From Azospirillum lipoferum 4B (lineage in GTDB: Bacteria; Pseudomonadota; Alphaproteobacteria; Azospirillales; Azospirillaceae): DNA of 64,000 bases. Positions 32,722-60,878 of the stretch are shown piece by piece. The notes under the pieces were generated by a model that was not told the DNA's origin, did no database searches, and worked only from the letters and a program-made list of their open reading frames with translations. Made by a program: the position numbers and the translations under genes. Location: positions 2,802,501 through 2,866,500 of the forward strand of contig NC_016622.1 of NCBI RefSeq assembly GCF_000283655.1, written 5' to 3'. How positions within the stretch are numbered: the first letter of the stretch is position 1; each line of letters opens with the position of its first letter.

Positions 32722-34986
32722 TCACCACGGCAGCGAGTCATGCGCCGCCAGGGCCGCGGCGGTGACGATGTCGTTCACCGAGGCGCCCATGCTGACGATC
32801 TGCGCCGGCTTGTCCAAGCCGATCAGCAGCGGGCCGATCATCTGGCCGCCGGCCATCTTGTTCAGCAGCTTGGCCGAGATGTTGGCCGAATGCAGGCCGG
32901 GCATGATCAGCACGTTGGCCGGACCGGACAGCCGCGAGAACGGGTAGACCCGCTTCATCAGCTGGTAATCCAGCGCCACGTCGGCCGACATCTCGCCGTC
33001 ATACTCGAAATCGACCCGGCGGCTGTCGAGGATCGACAGGGCCTCGCGCAGCGGATCGGTGTTCGGGTGCGGCGTCTGGCCGAAGTTGGAGAAGGACAGC
33101 AACGCCACCCGCGGCTCATGCCCCATCTGCCGGGCCTTGGCCGCGGCACCGACAGCGATGTCGGCCAGCGTCTTGCCGTCGGGGCGGACATGGACGGTGG
33201 TGTCGGCGATGAAGACGGTGCGGTTTCGGGTGATGAACAGGTGCAGGCCGAAGACCGGCTCGTTCGCCTTCGGGTCGATGACGCGACGGAGCTCCTCATA
33301 GGCGACGCCGAAGCTGCGGGTCAGGCCGGTCACCATGGCATGGGCATCGCCCTGCGCCACCATGCAGGCGGCGAAGACGTTGCGGTCCTGGTTGACCATC
33401 CGCTGGCAGTCGCGCAGCAGGGCGCCCTTGCGCTGCAGGCGGCGGTAGAGATGGTCGGCATAGCGGCGGTTGGCGTCCGACAGGCGGGCGTTGTGGATTT
33501 CGAACTGGACGTTGGGCTGGCCCATCGCCACCAGCTGTTCCCTGATCACCTCTTCGCGGCCGATCAGCACCGGCGTGCCGTAGCCGTGGGCGCGGAAGGC
33601 CATGGCGGCGCGGATCGTCCGCTCCTCCTCGCCCTCGGCGAAGACGACGCGGCGCGGGTTGGTCCGCACCTTCTCCAGGATCAGCTCCAGGCTGTCGGCG
33701 GTCGGGTCCAGACGGGTGCGCAGGGAATGCTTGTAGCTGGTCAGGTCGAGGATCGGCTTGCGCGCCACGCCGCTTTCCATCGCCGCCTGGGCGACCGCGG
33801 CCGGAACGGTGACGATCAGGCGCGGGTCGAAGGGCACCGGAATGATGTAGTCGGGGCCATAGCGCAGCCGGCGCCCGGAATAGGCTGCATCGACCTCGTC
33901 CGGCACATCCTCGCGCGCCAGCGCCGCCAGCGCCTTGGCGGCGGCGACCTTCATCGCCTCGTTGATGGTGGTGGCGCGGACATCCAGCGCGCCGCGGAAC
34001 AGATAGGGGAAGCCCAGGACGTTGTTGACCTGGTTCGGATAGTCGGACCGGCCGGTCGCGACGATGGCGTCGCTGCGCACCGCCTTGACCTCCTCCGGCG
34101 TGATTTCCGGATCGGGGTTGGCCAGAGCGAAGATGATCGGCTTGGCCGCCATCGACTTCACCATCTCCGGCGTCATCGCCCCCTTGGCCGACAGGCCGAC
34201 GAAGACGTCGGAGCCCGCCACCGCCTCTTCCAGCGTGCGCTTGTCGGTGTCGACGGCGAAGGACGACTTCCACTGGTTCATGCCGCTGGTGCGGCCGCGA
34301 TAGACCACGCCCTTGGTGTCGCACAGGATGATGTTTTCACGTGAAACACCCATCGTGCAGAACAGCTCGGCGCAGGCGATGCCCGCCGCACCGGCGCCGT
34401 TCACCACCATCTTCACGTCCTCGATCTTGCGGCCGGTGATGTCGCAGGCGTTGATCAGGCCGGCGGCGGCGATGATCGCGGTGCCGTGCTGGTCGTCATG
34501 GAAGACCGGAATGTCCAGCAGTTCGCGCAGCCGCTCCTCAATGATGAAGCAGTCGGGCGCCTTGATGTCTTCCAGGTTGATGCCGCCGAAGCTGGGGCCG
34601 AGGAAGCGCACGCAGTTGACGAACTCGTCCACGTCGCGGGTGTCGACCTCCAGGTCGATGCCGTCGACGTCGGCGAAGCGCTTGAACAGCACCGCCTTGC
34701 CTTCCATCACCGGCTTGCCGGCGAGCGCGCCCAGGTCGCCCAGCCCCAGCACCGCCGTGCCGTTGGAGATGATGGCGACGATGTTGCCCTTCGCCGTGTA
34801 GTCGTAGGCGAGCGACGGATCCTCGGCGATGCGCAGGCAGGGCACGGCGACGCCGGGCGAATAGGCGAGCGCCAGATCGCGCTGGGTCGTCAGCGGCTTG
34901 GTCGGGGTGATTTCCAGCTTGCCGGGCCGGCCGCTGGAATGCAGCAGCAGGGCCTCTTCGTCGGTGACGCGCTTGGTGTCGGACAT
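32722..34986 (-). CDS. maeB: NADP-dependent malic enzyme MaeB (malic enzyme fused to a phosphotransacetylase-like domain)
   Basis: 754-residue enzyme converting malate to pyruvate and CO2 with NADP. The malic enzyme part (about 1-425) has TQRDLALAYSPGVAVPCL, FHDDQHGTAIIAAAGLINAC and the nucleotide-binding VNGAGAAGIACAELF. The C-terminal PTA-like domain (about 430-754) is the regulatory, non-catalytic module typical of large bacterial MaeB. The ATG at 34986 (MSDTKRVTD) follows GAGGAACACG. A 14/16 parS site lies within the coding region (34333-34348), encoding GVSRE. Confidence 0.96.
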   Translation of the reverse strand: MSDTKRVTDEEALLLHSSGRPGKLEITPTKPLTTQRDLALAYSPGVAVPCLRIAEDPSLAYDYTAKGNIVAIISNGTAVLGLGDLGALAGKPVMEGKAVLFKRFADVDGIDLEVDTRDVDEFVNCVRFLGPSFGGINLEDIKAPDCFIIEERLRELLDIPVFHDDQHGTAIIAAAGLINACDITGRKIEDVKMVVNGAGAAGIACAELFCTMGVSRENIILCDTKGVVYRGRTSGMNQWKSSFAVDTDKRTLEEAVAGSDVFVGLSAKGAMTPEMVKSMAAKPIIFALANPDPEITPEEVKAVRSDAIVATGRSDYPNQVNNVLGFPYLFRGALDVRATTINEAMKVAAAKALAALAREDVPDEVDAAYSGRRLRYGPDYIIPVPFDPRLIVTVPAAVAQAAMESGVARKPILDLTSYKHSLRTRLDPTADSLELILEKVRTNPRRVVFAEGEEERTIRAAMAFRAHGYGTPVLIGREEVIREQLVAMGQPNVQFEIHNARLSDANRRYADHLYRRLQRKGALLRDCQRMVNQDRNVFAACMVAQGDAHAMVTGLTRSFGVAYEELRRVIDPKANEPVFGLHLFITRNRTVFIADTTVHVRPDGKTLADIAVGAAAKARQMGHEPRVALLSFSNFGQTPHPNTDPLREALSILDSRRVDFEYDGEMSADVALDYQLMKRVYPFSRLSGPANVLIMPGLHSANISAKLLNKMAGGQMIGPLLIGLDKPAQIVSMGASVNDIVTAAALAAHDSLPW
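34333..34348. other. parS: parS-like ParB-binding site (14/16) in maeB
   Basis: Matches TGTTTCACGTGAAACA except at the first two bases; the right half and the central CACGTG are exact. It is about 18 kb from the proposed origin. Confidence 0.7.
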
Positions 34987-38487: not shown

Positions 38488-39399
38488 TTACTCCTCTCCC
38501 CCCAGCCGGTGCAGCACGTCATCCAGCTGGTCGAGCGTCTGGTAGTGGATGGTGATCGTCCCGCGCTGACCCTGCGGATTGATTGCGACCTTCAGCCCGA
38601 TGCGGGCGGAGATCTCCTCCTCCAGATTGATCAGATCGACGTCCTTCATCGCCGGGGCGGTGCCGGATCCGTCATTCGCGGCCTTGCCCTTCTTCGCCTT
38701 GGGCTGGTCGCCACGCATCAGGTCTTCGGTCTGGCGGACGTTCAGGCCACGGCTGACCACCTCGCGGGCGGCTGCGGCCGGATCCGGGGCGGTCAGCAGG
38801 GCGCGGGCATGGCCGGCAGTCAGCGCGCCGTCCTGCACCATCGACTTGACCGGATCCGGCAGAGCCAGCAGGCGCATCATGTTGGCGACATGGCTGCGGC
38901 TCTTGCCGACGGCGCGGGCCAGATCCTCCTGCGTGTGCTCGAACTCCTCCATCAGGCGGCGGTAACCCTCCGCCTCTTCCAGAGGGGTCAGATCCTGGCG
39001 CTGGATGTTCTCGATCAGCGCGATTTCCAGCGCCTCGCGGTCGCTGAGATCGCGGATGATGACCGGCACCTCGTGCAGGCCGGCGATCTGCGCGGCGCGC
39101 CAGCGGCGTTCGCCGGCGATCAGCTCGTAGGAGTTCGCGTCCTCGGCGTCACGGCGCACCAGCAGCGGCTGAAGGATACCCTTGTCGCGGATGGACTCGA
39201 CAAGGCCGCTGATCGCCTCTTCGTCGAACTTCCGCCGCGGCTGGTATTTGCCGGGGTGGACGAACTCGATCGGCACCTGCTTGGACTGCCGCACCTTGTC
39301 GAGCGCCGAATAATCCTCGGTCGCCTCGCCGAACAGGGCGGAGAGGCCGCGGCCCAGGCTGGCGCGGCGGGCGCCTCCTTGCTTGGTGTCGTCGATCAT
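38488..39399 (-). CDS. parB: Chromosome-partitioning protein ParB (CTPase, parS binding)
   Basis: 303-residue centromere-binding protein. It begins with [11 protein letters not shown]; the CTP-binding GERRWRAA box is at 96-103; the parS-reading helix-turn-helix is at about 157-178 ([20 protein letters not shown]). The C-terminal dimerisation domain ends [19 protein letters not shown]. Five putative target sites are present in the window. It is the last gene of the mnmE-mnmG-rsmG-parA-parB set, overlapping the parA stop by four bases. Confidence 0.97.
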
Positions 39400-40193
39400 G
39401 CGGTCAGTCTCTTCTCACGGCGCAGCACCTCGCCCGCCAGATGGATGTAGGCCTGGGATCCGGGGCAGCGCATGTCATAGATCAGCACCGGCTTGCCGTG
39501 CGACGGCGCTTCGGAGACCTTGACGTTGCGCGGGATCACGGTGTCGTACACCTTCTCCCCGAAGAAACCACGAACGTCCGCCGCCACCATGTCCGACAGG
39601 TTGTTGCGCTTGTCGAACATGGTCAGTACGACGCCGTGGATGTCGAGGTTCGGGTTGAAGGCGCGCTTCACCCGCTCGATGGTGCGGACCAGATGGCTGA
39701 GACCCTCCAGCGCGTAGAACTCGCACTGCAGGGGAACCATCACGGCATGAGAGGCGACCAGCGCGTTCAGCGTCAGCAGACCCAGCGCCGGCGGGCAGTC
39801 GATCAGGACATAGTCGTATTCCAGCGCGCTGTTGGCGACCGCCTCGCGCAGGCGGAACTCACGCCGCTCGGCGCCGACCAGCTCGATCTCCGCACCCGAC
39901 AGGTCGACCGACGAGGTGATGATCGACAGGTTCGGCACTGAGGAAGGGGTAGCGGCATCCTCCAGCGACACGTCGTCGAACAGCACGTCATAGATGCCGA
40001 CGCGGCGGTCGGAGCGCGAAATGCCGAGCCCGGTGGACGCATTGCCCTGCGGGTCGAGATCGATCACCAGCACCCGCTTGCCGATGACGGCGAGCGCGGT
40101 GGCAAGGTTGATCGTCGTCGTGGTCTTGCCCACGCCGCCCTTCTGGTTGGCAATCGCAACCACACGGGCAAGGGGACGGGTGACGGCAGACAT
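39396..40193 (-). CDS. parA: Chromosome-partitioning ATPase ParA
   Basis: 265-residue deviant-Walker ATPase that pulls ParB-parS complexes across the nucleoid. The Walker A NQKGGVGKTTTTINLATALA contains the signature lysine (K18), and LIDCPPALGLLTLNAL carries Walker B. The start MSAVTRPLARVVAIANQ matches the family. An ATG at 40262 overlaps the rsmG stop by four bases and would add 23 unconserved residues; that coupling leaves the start open. Transcribed before parB. Confidence 0.96.
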   Translation of the reverse strand: MSAVTRPLARVVAIANQKGGVGKTTTTINLATALAVIGKRVLVIDLDPQGNASTGLGISRSDRRVGIYDVLFDDVSLEDAATPSSVPNLSIITSSVDLSGAEIELVGAERREFRLREAVANSALEYDYVLIDCPPALGLLTLNALVASHAVMVPLQCEFYALEGLSHLVRTIERVKRAFNPNLDIHGVVLTMFDKRNNLSDMVAADVRGFFGEKVYDTVIPRNVKVSEAPSHGKPVLIYDMRCPGSQAYIHLAGEVLRREKRLTA

Positions 40194-40258
40194 GGCAGCC
40201 TCTCGGGAGTCCGGTTGGCGGGAAGAAGGCGGGGGAACAACAGTGTCAGGCACGGTCT

Positions 40259-40869
40259 TCATGCACGCTCAAGGTGACTCACACGCAGGATGGTTCCGCT
40301 CGGATCGGTGCGGCTGTCAAATCGCTCAGAGTTCATTGTCCAATATTGCGTGGTGGCGGTCAATTCGTCGTCCAGTGCCGCGCCCTTGAGAAACAGGCAC
40401 TTGCCGCGCGATCCGATGAAGGGATGGGCCCAGGCGAACAGGTCGGCCAGCGGCGCCAATGCACGGGCTGTGACGACATCGGCCTCGATCCCGGTGACGG
40501 TCTCGATCCGCTTGGTGTGAACGGTGACCGGCGCTTCGCAGACGCGGGCGACCTCGCGGAGGAAGGCGCATTTGCGCACATCGCTCTCGATCAGATGCAC
40601 CTGCGGCACACCGAGAATGGCGAGCACCAGACCGGGAAAGCCGGCGCCGCTGCCGAGATCGACCAGAACCCGCGTGCCCTCCGGCAACAGCGGATAGAGC
40701 TGGGCGGAATCGAGGAAGTGACGCTTCCAGGCATCGGGCAGGGTGGAGGGGCCGACCAGATTGATCTTCGGCTGCCACTTGCGCAGCAGCCCCTCATAGG
40801 CAATCAGGCGGTCGAGTGTTTCACGTGAAACACCGGTGGCCTCCTGAAATGCGACGGCATCGAACCCGC

Positions 40870-42876: not shown

Positions 42877-42892
42877 TGTTTCACGTGAAACA
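42877..42892. other. parS: parS site (16/16) between mnmE and mnmG
   Basis: Perfect TGTTTCACGTGAAACA, 5 bases beyond the mnmE stop and 111 bases upstream of the mnmG start. Two kb from the other perfect site. Confidence 0.94.
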
Positions 42893-50108: not shown

Positions 50109-51005
50109 TCAGTCTTCCGAAACGGACGGGGCCAGAACGAAGCGGGTCAGTTCCGCCGTCACCTGCGGCTCGACGCCGAACCAAGCCTTGAAGCCGGGAC
50201 GCGCCTGGTGCAGCAGCATGCCGATGCCGCCCGCCACCGGATTGCCGCGCGTCCTGGCCTCGGCCAGCAGCGGGGTTTCCAGCGGCACATAGACGATGTC
50301 GTTGACGACCGCCGCGAGGGGCAGGGCACGCAGGGACAGGTCCAGCGCCGGCTGGCCCGCCATGCCCTGGGTGGTGGTGTTGACCAGCAGCGCGGCACCG
50401 TCGAGCGCCGTTTCACGTGAAACCCAATCGACCACCGTCACGCCGCCGTTCAGCCCGACCGCGGCCAGATCCGCCGCCAGCTCTTCGGCACGGGCACGGG
50501 TGCGGTTGACCAGACGGACCTCCGGCGCACCGGCGTCGAGCAGGGCGACCACCACGGCACGGGCAGCACCGCCGGCGCCGATCACCACGGCCGGACCGCT
50601 CTCGGCCGTCCAGCCAGGCTGTTCGGCGCGCAAATTCTCGATGAAGCCGAAGCCGTCGGTGTTGCCACCCTCCAGCGCGCCGTCCTCTGCCACCACGATG
50701 GTGTTGACAGCACCCATGCGCCGCGCGGTCTCATCAAGCCGGTCGACGGTGCGATAGGCGATCTCCTTCAGCGGGACGGTGACGTTGCAGCCGCGAAAGC
50801 CCAGCGCGGGCAGGGCACGGATGGCCTGCTCGGCGCGCTCCGGCGCCACCGCCAGAGGGACATAGGCGCCGTCGATCCCATACTGCCGCAGCCAGAATCC
50901 GTGAAGCCGGGGAGACCGCGAATGGCCGATCGGCCAGCCCATGACGCCGGCGATCTTCGCCTTGCCGCTGATAGCCCCACCGCTGTTTGAAGGAACCGCC
51001 GTCAT
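50109..51005 (-). CDS. aroE: Shikimate dehydrogenase
   Basis: 298-residue NADP enzyme of aromatic amino acid synthesis. The shikimate site is WPIGHSRSPRLHGFWL (Ser about 29-31) and NVTVPLKE with K80, followed by GAGGAARAVVVALLDAG for NADP. A 14/16 parS lies inside the frame (50409-50424) encoding VSRET. The start ATG at 51005 overlaps the maf stop by four bases (ATGA), and AAGGA precedes it; the frame continues further upstream but is not conserved there. Confidence 0.95.
   Translation of the reverse strand: MTAVPSNSGGAISGKAKIAGVMGWPIGHSRSPRLHGFWLRQYGIDGAYVPLAVAPERAEQAIRALPALGFRGCNVTVPLKEIAYRTVDRLDETARRMGAVNTIVVAEDGALEGGNTDGFGFIENLRAEQPGWTAESGPAVVIGAGGAARAVVVALLDAGAPEVRLVNRTRARAEELAADLAAVGLNGGVTVVDWVSRETALDGAALLVNTTTQGMAGQPALDLSLRALPLAAVVNDIVYVPLETPLLAEARTRGNPVAGGIGMLLHQARPGFKAWFGVEPQVTAELTRFVLAPSVSED
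50409..50424. other. parS: parS-like site (14/16) in aroE
   Basis: CGTTTCACGTGAAACC differs from the consensus only at the two outermost bases, leaving a perfect 14-base core. About 2 kb from the proposed origin. Confidence 0.8.
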
Positions 51006-51604
51006 TCCTTGCCAACCCCATGCACGCGCAGAAACCCGAGCAGCGGCAGCAGCGGCAGCCCGAGGATGGTGAAGAAATCGCCTTCGACCCGCTGGAACAG
51101 CTGCGCTCCCAACCCTTCCAGCTGATAGGCACCGACCGAGTGCAGCACCTCGTCGCCGACGCGGTCGAGATAATCGTCGAGGAAGGATTCGGAAAAGTTG
51201 CGCATGGTCAGCCGGGCGCTGTCGACCTTGTGCCACATCCGCTCGCCGTCACGCACCACCACGGCACAGCTGACCAACCGATGGGTCTTGCCACGCAGGT
51301 CGAGCAGCTGCGCACGCGCCGCCGCCCGGTCGGCCGGCTTGTCGAACCAGCGCCCCTCGCATTCCAGCATCTGGTCGGCGCCGACCACCAGCGCGCCGGG
51401 ATGGCGGCGGGTGATGCGCTGGGCCTTCAGTTCGGCCAGGGCCTCGGCGACCGCATCGGCCGGCACGCCTTCCGCCCGGCCGGCGGCCTTAACCTCGTCC
51501 TCGTCGACCAGCGGCTTGTCGAGGATGGCGCTGACGCCGGCCTGCTCCAGCATCGCCGCCCGCGTGCGCGAGCCGGACGCCAGCACCAGAACGGGCGCGC
51601 TCAC
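51002..51604 (-). CDS. maf: Maf-like nucleoside triphosphate pyrophosphatase
   Basis: 200-residue Maf-family housecleaning pyrophosphatase. It begins VSAPVLVLASGSRTRAAMLE (GTG at 51604), with GVSAILDKPLVDEDEVKAAG (about 24-43) and VVGADQMLECEGR (about 75), the active-site Asp region. Start overlaps the ppsR stop by four bases (GTGA) and its stop overlaps aroE. The ppsR-maf-aroE-coaE-dnaQ order is conserved near alphaproteobacterial origins. Confidence 0.92.
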   Translation of the reverse strand: MSAPVLVLASGSRTRAAMLEQAGVSAILDKPLVDEDEVKAAGRAEGVPADAVAEALAELKAQRITRRHPGALVVGADQMLECEGRWFDKPADRAAARAQLLDLRGKTHRLVSCAVVVRDGERMWHKVDSARLTMRNFSESFLDDYLDRVGDEVLHSVGAYQLEGLGAQLFQRVEGDFFTILGLPLLPLLGFLRVHGVGKE

Positions 51605-52440
51605 GTCTTCTTTCCTTCGGGGCTGAAGTTGGCGCTTTGGCGCCGGGCCAGCAGCATCATGATCTCGGCCGCCGTCTCCTCGATGGACCGGCGGGAGACG
51701 TCGATCACCGGCCAGCCGCGCCGGCTGAACAGGCGCCGCGCTTCCTGCACCTCGGAGCGCACCACTTCGGGATCGGCGTAGCTGGAGCCTTCGCCCTGGT
51801 TGAGCAGCTTCAGCCGGTTGCGGCGGATCTGCACCAGCCGGTCGGGGTCCTTGGTCAGCCCGACGATCAGCGGCCGGGTCAGGAGATCGACCTCGGCGGG
51901 CAGCGGACTGCCGGGCACCAGCGGGATGTTGGCCGCCTTGATGCCGCGGTTGGCCAGATAGATGCAGGTCGGCGTCTTGGAACTGCGCGACACCCCGATC
52001 AGCACCACATCGGCCTCGTGCAGGTCCCAGTTCGACTGGCCGTCGTCGTGCGACAGGGCGAAGTCGACCGCGTCGATCCGGCTGAAATACTCGGCGTCCA
52101 GGACATGCTGGCGGCCGGGCTGGCGCTGCGATTCCACCCCCAGGAAGGCGGCGAGCGCGTTGATCAACGGATCGAGCACGGGGATGCAGGGCACCTGCAT
52201 CTCGCGGCAGAAATCCTGCAGGCGGCGGCGCAGCGTCTCGTCGACCAGCGTGAACATCACCAGCCCGTGATTGTCCCGGATCCCTTCCAGGACAAGGTCG
52301 AGCTGGCGGTCTGTCCGCACCAGATTCCAGAAATGCTCGATCGGCCGGACGTCGTCGAACTGGATGACGCAGGCGCGCGCCACGCTGTTGATGGTCTCGC
52401 CCGTCGCATCGGACACGAGATGTAGGTGGAACTCTTTCAT
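51601..52440 (-). CDS. ppsR: Pyruvate, phosphate dikinase / PEP synthetase regulatory protein (DUF299)
   Basis: 279-residue bifunctional kinase/pyrophosphorylase that switches PEP synthetase or pyruvate phosphate dikinase on and off by reversible phosphorylation. It begins MKEFHLHLVSDATGETINSV, and the nucleotide-binding loop is VLIGVSRSSKTPTCIYLANR (about 148-167). The gene starts at the left edge of the origin region and is transcribed away from it. The usual partner gene (ppsA or ppdK) is not in the window. Confidence 0.93.
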   Translation of the reverse strand: MKEFHLHLVSDATGETINSVARACVIQFDDVRPIEHFWNLVRTDRQLDLVLEGIRDNHGLVMFTLVDETLRRRLQDFCREMQVPCIPVLDPLINALAAFLGVESQRQPGRQHVLDAEYFSRIDAVDFALSHDDGQSNWDLHEADVVLIGVSRSSKTPTCIYLANRGIKAANIPLVPGSPLPAEVDLLTRPLIVGLTKDPDRLVQIRRNRLKLLNQGEGSSYADPEVVRSEVQEARRLFSRRGWPVIDVSRRSIEETAAEIMMLLARRQSANFSPEGKKT

Positions 52441-52891
52441 CCGTCCCCAACATTCTGTGGAGAACCCGGCCCAGATCTGTGGACAACCGGATCCGCCTGC
52501 GTTTCATCCCGACCGGGGGACTCCTCCTCCCCGATACGGCCAAGGGGAGAACAACTCCGCCGACCGCTTCGGAAGCTGGGAAGATCCGGCCCCGCCCGCG
52601 CTGTTATCCACGGGACTCCCGTTCGTCCAGCTATAGCATTTCCGCCGTTTCCCGCGGTAGTGCTCCGAATCGTCCACAGATCCGCGCACATGTCCGCACA
52701 AGCCCCCGGATCTGTGGATAGATTCGCGTGCCTCGGGGATCACCGTTATCCACAGCCATCCACCTCATCCTCTTCCTTTCTCCCTTTAAAAAATATAGTG
52801 AAGAAGAGGGGATAAACCCGTCCGAGATTCCGGGACCGATTCCGTGTTGGAATCGCGGAATCGAGATTCGCATTCAGGGGAACGCACCGCC
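52441..52891. other. oriC: Probable chromosomal replication origin (oriC)
   Basis: 451 bases between the divergent ppsR and hemE genes, without a gene. DnaA-box-like nonamers (consensus TTATNCACA): exact at 52746-52754, and single-mismatch at 52456-52464, 52478-52486, 52604-52612 and 52713-52721; a two-mismatch copy is at 52670-52678. A pyrimidine-rich tract and an AT-rich stretch (TTTAAAAAATATAG, 52785-52798) could be the unwinding element. GANTC sites cluster on the right side. The hemE-side position equals that of the Caulobacter origin, and parABS lies nearby. No CtrA TTAA-N7-TTAA was found here. Confidence 0.85.
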
Positions 52892-52922
52892 TTGTCCGAT
52901 TCCAGCTCCGCCGTCCAGAATC
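52667..52922. promoter_or_regulatory. Cluster of nine GANTC (CcrM-type methylation) sites
   Basis: GANTC at 52667, 52721, 52826, 52838, 52850, 52858, 52865, 52898 and 52918. Random expectation is about one in this length. They span the right part of the origin and the hemE start, and could couple hemE transcription or initiation to replication through CcrM methylation. Confidence 0.75.
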
Positions 52923-53968
52923 CGAAGTCCCCGCTGAAGCCGATGCTCGCCGCCCTGGCGGGAGAGGTGCGGTCGCGTCCGCCCTTCTGGCTGATGCGTC
53001 AGGCCGGACGCTACCTGCCGGAGTACCGGGAATTGCGGGCGAAGGCGGGCAGCTTCCTGGACCTCTGCTACAACCCCGACTTCGCGGTCGAGGTCACCCT
53101 GCAGCCGCTGCGCCGCTACGGCATGGACGCGGCGATTCTGTTCTCCGACATCCTGGTGGTGCCGCATGCCCTGGGCCAGCCGCTGGCCTATCTGGAAGGG
53201 GAGGGGCCGAAGCTGGATCCGGTCCGCAACGTCGAGGACCTGAAGCGCCTGTCGCGCGACCGCTTCCACGAGACGCTGGCGCCGGTCTACGAGACGGTGC
53301 GCCGGCTCTCCACCGCGATCCCCGAGGGCACGACGCTGATCGGCTTTGCCGGGGCTCCCTGGACCATCGCCTGCTACATGGTCGAAGGGGCCGGGTCGAA
53401 GGAGTATGCCCACGTGAAGCGCTGGGCCTATGGCGACCCGGTGGGATTCGGCCAGCTGATCGATCTGATCGTGGATGTCACCGCCGACTATCTCTGCCGC
53501 CAGATTGAGGCGGGGGCGGAAACGGTGCAGCTGTTCGACAGCTGGGCCGGCGTCCTGCCGGTCGGCGAGTTCCGCCGCTGGGTGATCGAGCCGACGCGGC
53601 GGATTGTCGCACTGGTGAAGGCCAAGCACCCGAACACGCCGATCATCGGCTTCCCGCGCGGGGCCGGCCACGCCTATGAGGATTACGTCGCCGACGCTGG
53701 CGTCGATGCCGTCGGGCTCGACACCACCGTCTCGCCGGTCTGGGCTGCCCGTACGCTGCAGCCCCGCCTGCCGGTGCAGGGAAACCTCGATCCGATCATG
53801 CTGGCCACCGGCGGCAAGGCGCTGGAGACGGCGACCCGCGACATCCTGGAGGCGTTGGCAGACCGCCCCTTCGTGTTCAACCTGGGCCATGGCGTGATCC
53901 AGTCCACCCCGCCCGATCATGTGGCGGCGCTGACCCGGATCCTGCGGGAGTGGCCGGACCGCGGCTGA
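52892..53968 (+). CDS. hemE: Uroporphyrinogen decarboxylase
   Basis: 358-residue enzyme that removes four acetate carboxyls from uroporphyrinogen III in heme synthesis. The signature PPFWLMRQAGRYLPEYRELR is near residue 28; GFAGAPWTIACYMVEG and FPRGAGHAYEDYV follow. TTG at 52892 is preferred because AGGGGAACG lies at ribosome-binding distance; the frame is open to a GTG at 52844. It flanks the origin, and its promoter must lie in the GANTC-rich stretch. First gene of hemE-hemH-hemJ. Confidence 0.94.
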   Translation: MSDSSSAVQNPKSPLKPMLAALAGEVRSRPPFWLMRQAGRYLPEYRELRAKAGSFLDLCYNPDFAVEVTLQPLRRYGMDAAILFSDILVVPHALGQPLAYLEGEGPKLDPVRNVEDLKRLSRDRFHETLAPVYETVRRLSTAIPEGTTLIGFAGAPWTIACYMVEGAGSKEYAHVKRWAYGDPVGFGQLIDLIVDVTADYLCRQIEAGAETVQLFDSWAGVLPVGEFRRWVIEPTRRIVALVKAKHPNTPIIGFPRGAGHAYEDYVADAGVDAVGLDTTVSPVWAARTLQPRLPVQGNLDPIMLATGGKALETATRDILEALADRPFVFNLGHGVIQSTPPDHVAALTRILREWPDRG

Positions 53969-60862: not shown

Positions 60863-60878
60863 TGTTTCACGTGAAGCG
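60863..60878. other. parS: parS-like site (14/16) between mltA and hslU
   Basis: TGTTTCACGTGAAGCG has two mismatches, both in the right arm; left half and core are exact. It is about 8 kb to the right of the proposed origin, the only site on that side. Confidence 0.7.

Follow-up and report, generated by a model that had tools for sequence, protein, structure and literature searches.

The experimentally identified origin of replication of Caulobacter, Cori, is flanked by hemE and a gene of the COG1806/DUF299 family, and the available part of the literature describes it as holding five boxes for DnaA, as many sites for CtrA, one for IHF and an AT-rich region of 40 bp (PMC1914354). The same portion of that source gives hemE as a boundary, together with DnaA boxes, for the origins of Rickettsia and Wolbachia, with COG1806 on the other side in Rickettsia prowazekii, and with COG1253 as the second flank and reported CtrA and IHF sites in Wolbachia (PMC1914354). 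Several GANTC motifs in the origins of C. crescentus and its close relatives are described in the part of a further paper available to us, in which the intergenic DNA of the class is given as, on average, more than 1.5-fold richer in GANTC (PMC3973325).

In the window analysed here (the whole 64-kb stretch of Azospirillum DNA), the same hemE/COG1806 pair encloses a gene-free gap of 451 bases, so that the Caulobacter-like hemE flank of the original prediction is borne out by the pair that borders Cori (PMC1914354, as far as available). The original prediction had further taken the gap to be oriC of the main chromosome. We consider this almost certain, as far as it can be judged from sequence, because strict parS sites cluster nearby, the DnaA-type boxes are conserved, the flanking pair is that of Cori, the GC skew of most sampled relatives favours a switch of sign at hemE, and the surroundings of dnaA lack a box cluster in the eight genomes inspected. 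The gap and its boundaries comprise the following features, a DnaA-type box being a match with at most one mismatch to TTATNCACA unless indicated.

51601 to 52440, minus strand: ppsR (DUF299/COG1806 family; Pfam Kinase-PPPase), the left boundary gene, with its start at 52440
52441 to 52891: the gene-free ppsR-hemE gap and candidate oriC, whose place matches that of the Caulobacter origin (available part of PMC1914354)
52456 to 52464, minus strand: DnaA-type box 1, TTCTCCACA, one mismatch, kept in all 24 gaps of the genus
52478 to 52486, minus strand: DnaA-type box 2, TTGTCCACA, one mismatch, kept in place, to within a single mismatch, in every genus gap except L024 (23 of 24)
52519 to 52869: nine GANTC sites, starting at 52519, 52614, 52667, 52721, 52826, 52838, 52850, 52858 and 52865
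52604 to 52612, plus strand: DnaA-type box 3, TTATCCACG, one mismatch, kept, to within a single mismatch, in every genus gap except L025 (23 of 24)
52639 to 52646, plus strand: conserved block TTTCCGCC, at least 95% in every column over 25 sequences
52670 to 52678, plus strand: a weak sixth DnaA-type box, TCGTCCACA, two mismatches
52713 to 52721, minus strand: DnaA-type box 4, CTATCCACA, one mismatch
52746 to 52754, plus strand: DnaA-type box 5, the exact TTATCCACA, closest of the boxes to the AT-rich stretch, kept, to within a single mismatch, in every genus gap except L025 (23 of 24)
52768 to 52787, plus strand: a pure pyrimidine tract containing the conserved CTTCCTTTCT (52772 to 52781)
52777 to 52816: the AT-richest 40-mer of the gap (70% AT), including TTTAAAAAATATAG at 52785 to 52798
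52892 to 53968, plus strand: hemE (Pfam URO-D), the right boundary gene, its start codon not settled

The reading frame of hemE is open from a GTG at 52844, and the start implied by the original prediction is the TTG at 52892; this later start appears plausible, since sequence conservation within the genus fades between about 52830 and 52880. Left of ppsR lie coaE, a dnaQ-type exonuclease gene and ORFs that are putatively maf and aroE, followed farther out by mnmE, mnmG, rsmG, parA and parB; on the right, hemE is succeeded by hemH, a UPF0093 gene, rho, secB and fxsA. The HemE protein of the window is 99% identical to that of the related genome G012 and 97% identical to that of G001. Of 80 named loci from across the class, 42 have ppsR standing divergently beside hemE with a gap in between. 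The arrangement is not universal, because ppsR is absent from the examined DNA of the other 38, full 13-kb loci among them. The Rickettsia and Wolbachia genomes are AT-rich, unlike the window. A search of the plasmid collection returned 39 records matching the query, none covering 80% of it in one place, and the annotated matches among the 20 listed of these 39 were hemE or ppsR genes. As a separate observation, the chromosome record G005:C1 ends within the 5' part of hemE; if it is circular, both of its ends join at or near the origin.

One exact and four single-mismatch nonamers had been claimed for the gap, together with a pyrimidine tract and the TTTAAAAAATATAG stretch, and all of these were recovered in place; the weak box at 52670 was not in that earlier list. 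The box total of the window is ordinary (10 matches, 7.46 expected), and five of the ten fall within the 451 bases, for which shuffles of the gap lead one to expect 0.14; no second cluster occurs in the 52 kb and the 11 kb of the window that flank the gap. Among 92 stretches of 20 kb from relatives, 91 reach at most two boxes per 451 bases, and the only one with five contains the orthologous gap. All 24 genus gaps (a further one, L011, was dropped as it ends in hemE) carry four to five boxes that differ from TTATNCACA in no more than one base, for the most part at matching offsets, against 0.09 to 0.23 expected from shuffles, box 4 missing the one-mismatch threshold in eight of them (L008, L016-L019, L021-L023). 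In 25 sequences compared over the first 359 bases, 34 of the 45 box columns are fully invariant, compared with 72 of the 314 other columns, and the weak box reads TC[GA]TCCACA in 13 of 14 aligned rows, with CCGTCCACA in L012. Six blocks of at least seven bases show at least 95% conservation in the 25 sequences; three lie inside boxes, and the others are TCCCCAA (52444 to 52450), TTTCCGCC and CTTCCTTTCT, the last adjoining the AT-rich stretch. We know of no binder for TTTCCGCC or TCCCCAA. An imperfect 21-base inverted repeat with a 4-base loop is also present (52673 to 52718), the outer ends of which lie inside two DnaA-type boxes.

The combination of hemE-ppsR flanks and a DnaA box cluster, as in other hemE-linked origins, is accompanied by an AT-rich element, the 70% AT of the stretch standing against about 65-70% GC in the window. 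The stretch at 52777 to 52816 is the probable unwinding element. Cori likewise has an AT-rich region and five DnaA boxes (PMC1914354, available part).

A further mark of a hemE-linked chromosomal origin, the presence of parS nearby, is found in the window as well:

34333 to 34348: parS-like site, motif match with two mismatches
38488 to 39399, minus strand: parB (Pfam ParB_N, HTH_ParB, ParB_C)
39396 to 40262, minus strand: parA (Pfam AAA_31/CbiA), named by its position beside parB
40817 to 40832: parS, exact motif match
42877 to 42892: parS, exact motif match
50409 to 50424: parS, motif match exact in the 14-base core GTTTCACGTGAAAC
60863 to 60878: parS-like site, motif match with two mismatches

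Only 0.04 such sites would be expected in the window, where five occur, the three strict ones at 12, 10 and 2.5 kb from hemE. In each of 25 genomes of the genus, all strict 14-base parS sites are located on the contig of hemE and within about 13 kb of it (three sites in 24 genomes, two in one; the distance in G005 was measured across the start of the record). A search that tolerates one mismatch yields seven sites in G012; five of them are no more than 20 kb from hemE, and the other two lie about 43 kb and about 0.7 Mb from it.

GC skew, named as a check in the original prediction, was examined on the chromosomes of six relatives (G003, G010, G011, G012, G015 and G021), sampled in 132 stretches of 20 kb, of which the one spanning hemE was omitted from the counts. 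Of the 131 stretches counted, 108 have the sign that an origin at hemE would give (20/20 in G003, 17/20 in G011, 18/20 in G021, 16/20 in G010, 15/20 in G015 and 22/31 in G012), the skew being positive in 51 of 65 to the right of the gene and negative in 57 of 66 to the left. As an origin hemE outscores dnaA in five of the six, G012 being contrary, and the switch of skew is accordingly a finding made in relatives only; within the 64-kb window the skew is noisy, with no change from minus to plus at the gap. The most telling case is G011, where dnaA is 0.64 Mb from hemE and the signs fit hemE in 17 of 20 stretches and dnaA in 11. In G012 the best-fitting origin is 18 kb from dnaA and 593 kb from hemE, in G021 it is 33 and 128 kb from these genes, respectively, and in G015 it is 230 kb from hemE; we judge the offsets in G021 and G015 to reflect coarse sampling. 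Among 300 permutations the best fit was equalled 34 times for G012, 14 for G015, 10 for G010, once for G021 and never for G011 and G003. Skew at fourfold sites is as expected in G003 and G011 and not clearly so in G021 and G012, and gene-strand bias gave nothing clear as an origin signal. The direction of rRNA operons marked the origin in none of 12 genomes, and was equally negative in the Caulobacter control, hence uninformative.

The skew of G012 favours dnaA over hemE (0.293 versus 0.243, and 0.425 versus 0.243 with the terminus left free), and is weak evidence because comparison with G015 suggests an extra block. The G012 chromosome is 476 kb longer; G015 stretches about 30 and 110 kb from hemE match G012 stretches at distances of 41 and 541 kb from the gene. 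G012 thus seems to carry additional DNA of anomalous skew, presumably inserted, to go by the 20 stretches of G015, although a 3.5-kb part of the stretch at +91 kb matches G015 at +405 kb. The segment concerned, at about 2.70-3.15 Mb of G012:C1 (L053-L058) between hemE and dnaA, seems to amount to about 0.43-0.48 Mb more than in G015; its skew is negative in five of six sampled stretches, clearly so in three, and it may stem from a translocation or from a second replicon that has integrated.

The genes dnaA and hemE are separated by about 640 kb in G011, by about 575 kb in G012 and by about 95-98 kb in G021 and G020. In all eight genomes inspected (G003, G009, G010, G011, G012, G015, G020 and G021), the DNA surrounding dnaA and upstream of it shows no more than two boxes per 451 bases, and the dnaA gene as the site of the origin was rejected on boxes, on parS, and on skew in five of six genomes. 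Position 1 of the record G012:C1 (L031) adjoins dnaA, some 573 kb from the likely origin.

DnaA also regulates genes, and the gap might instead be a divergent promoter for ppsR and hemE at which DnaA serves as a transcription regulator, replication starting elsewhere, for example at dnaA. The better fit of the sampled G012 skew to dnaA, the closeness of the G021 best fit to that gene and the lack of an IHF or CtrA consensus in the gap all speak for such a promoter; it is nevertheless very improbable, given strict parS beside hemE in all 25 genus genomes, the skew of G003, G011, G015 and G010, a dnaA locus devoid of a box cluster in eight of eight genomes, and a dnaA-hemE distance that varies from about 95 to about 640 kb while parS stays with hemE. 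That the true origin lies within tens of kilobases and the boxes in the gap are remains or serve another use, for which the resolution of 20-kb skew stretches (no finer than tens of kilobases) leaves room, can hardly be credited, as conservation of the boxes exceeds the background in 25 sequences and neither the 52 kb nor the 11 kb of remaining window contains another cluster.

With the gap as oriC, initiation and segregation may be pictured from what is established for DnaA and ParB. DnaA would bind the five to six boxes, which extend over some 300 bases, and would melt the AT-rich stretch at 52777 to 52816, starting from the exact box at 52746; helicase would be loaded there, and two forks would leave in opposite directions. 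ParB, bound to the parS sites at a distance of 2.5-12 kb on the side of ppsR and possibly to the weaker parS-like sites to the left and right as well, would then move the new origins apart.

The CtrA consensus is TTAA-N7-TTAA and the IHF consensus WATCARNNNNTTR; the gap contains no exact match to either, the best having three mismatches in both cases (for CtrA, to TTAANNNNNNNTTAAC). This sets it apart from Cori with its five CtrA sites and IHF site, and from the Wolbachia origin, as both are described in the available part of PMC1914354. The second peculiarity of the gap is its density of GANTC, which reaches 20 per kb where the window as a whole has 1.56 per kb, with two further sites just outside (52898 and 52918); seven control five-base palindromes occur zero to three times each in the gap. 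In 71,162 overlapping 451-base windows from 91 stretches of relatives that lack the origin, the mean is 0.65 sites, 19 windows reach seven and none reaches nine. Eight sites per 451 bases were seen far from the origin in L032 (offset about 4500; G012:C1, about 154.5 kb) and in L105 (offset about 575; G021:C1, about 900.6 kb). The 24 genus gaps have 6-11 sites each, 1.3-1.7 being expected; outside the genus, the gaps L026-L029 have 1, 4, 4 and 3 (1.7, 2.5, 1.5 and 2.6 expected), and that of Nitrospirillum (L139) has one (1.8 expected). Class-wide, 42 gaps hold 151 sites against 60.7 expected from base content, a figure that does not include the more than 1.5-fold richness of intergenic DNA; 32 of the 42 exceed expectation and 15 reach at least three times it.

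The origin of E. coli is likewise dense in adenine-methylation sites (Dam/SeqA), methylase and motif being different from those considered here. An overlap of GANTC with DnaA boxes, as in E. coli, was not upheld: class-wide, 13 of the 151 sites lie on boxes, with 26.7 expected (reached by 1000 of 1000 random sets), compared with three of four in the first 370 bases of the window gap (166 of 1000) and 29 of 57, 21.3 expected, in eight chosen genus gaps whose sequences are not independent (34 of 1000). PF18284 was discarded as a marker for CcrM, being the wrong family (found in none of 11 genomes and not in Caulobacter). The RAMA domain used in its place, which CcrM carries and which is not proof of CcrM, occurs in all 11 genomes examined and, among 14 controls, only in Caulobacter. 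GcrA was likewise detected in 11 of 11 and, among the controls, in Caulobacter and, oddly, Sulfolobus. GANTC is m6A-methylated in A. thiophilum, according to the available part of PMC4706337, so that, judging from relatives, the genus appears to use both the methylase and the motif that a methylation-timed origin calls for. It is conceivable, if rather unlikely, that CcrM methylation times the Azospirillum origin, the 6-11 GANTC having been selected to keep a freshly replicated, half-methylated origin refractory until CcrM acts late, as an independent counterpart of Dam/SeqA at a DnaA-dependent origin without recognisable CtrA sites. In itself, the enrichment has precedents: the GANTC richness of repABC origins is already in print, as are GANTC motifs in Caulobacter origins (PMC3973325, available part), which the gap resembles in having several such motifs, densities not being compared. 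The lack of CtrA and IHF consensus, by which the gap differs from Cori, and the dense GANTC cluster are worth a test.

In the literature searched, with subscription papers and origin databases outside its scope, no published account of an Azospirillum origin at hemE was found. The analysis places the main-chromosome origin of this multi-replicon, plant-associated genus at hemE and not at dnaA, beside which at least one chromosome record (G012) begins; this matters for gene-dosage, ori-ter and replichore analyses. Furthermore, a GANTC-dense origin without recognisable CtrA sites would offer a test bed for the question whether methylation times DnaA-dependent origins in the class.
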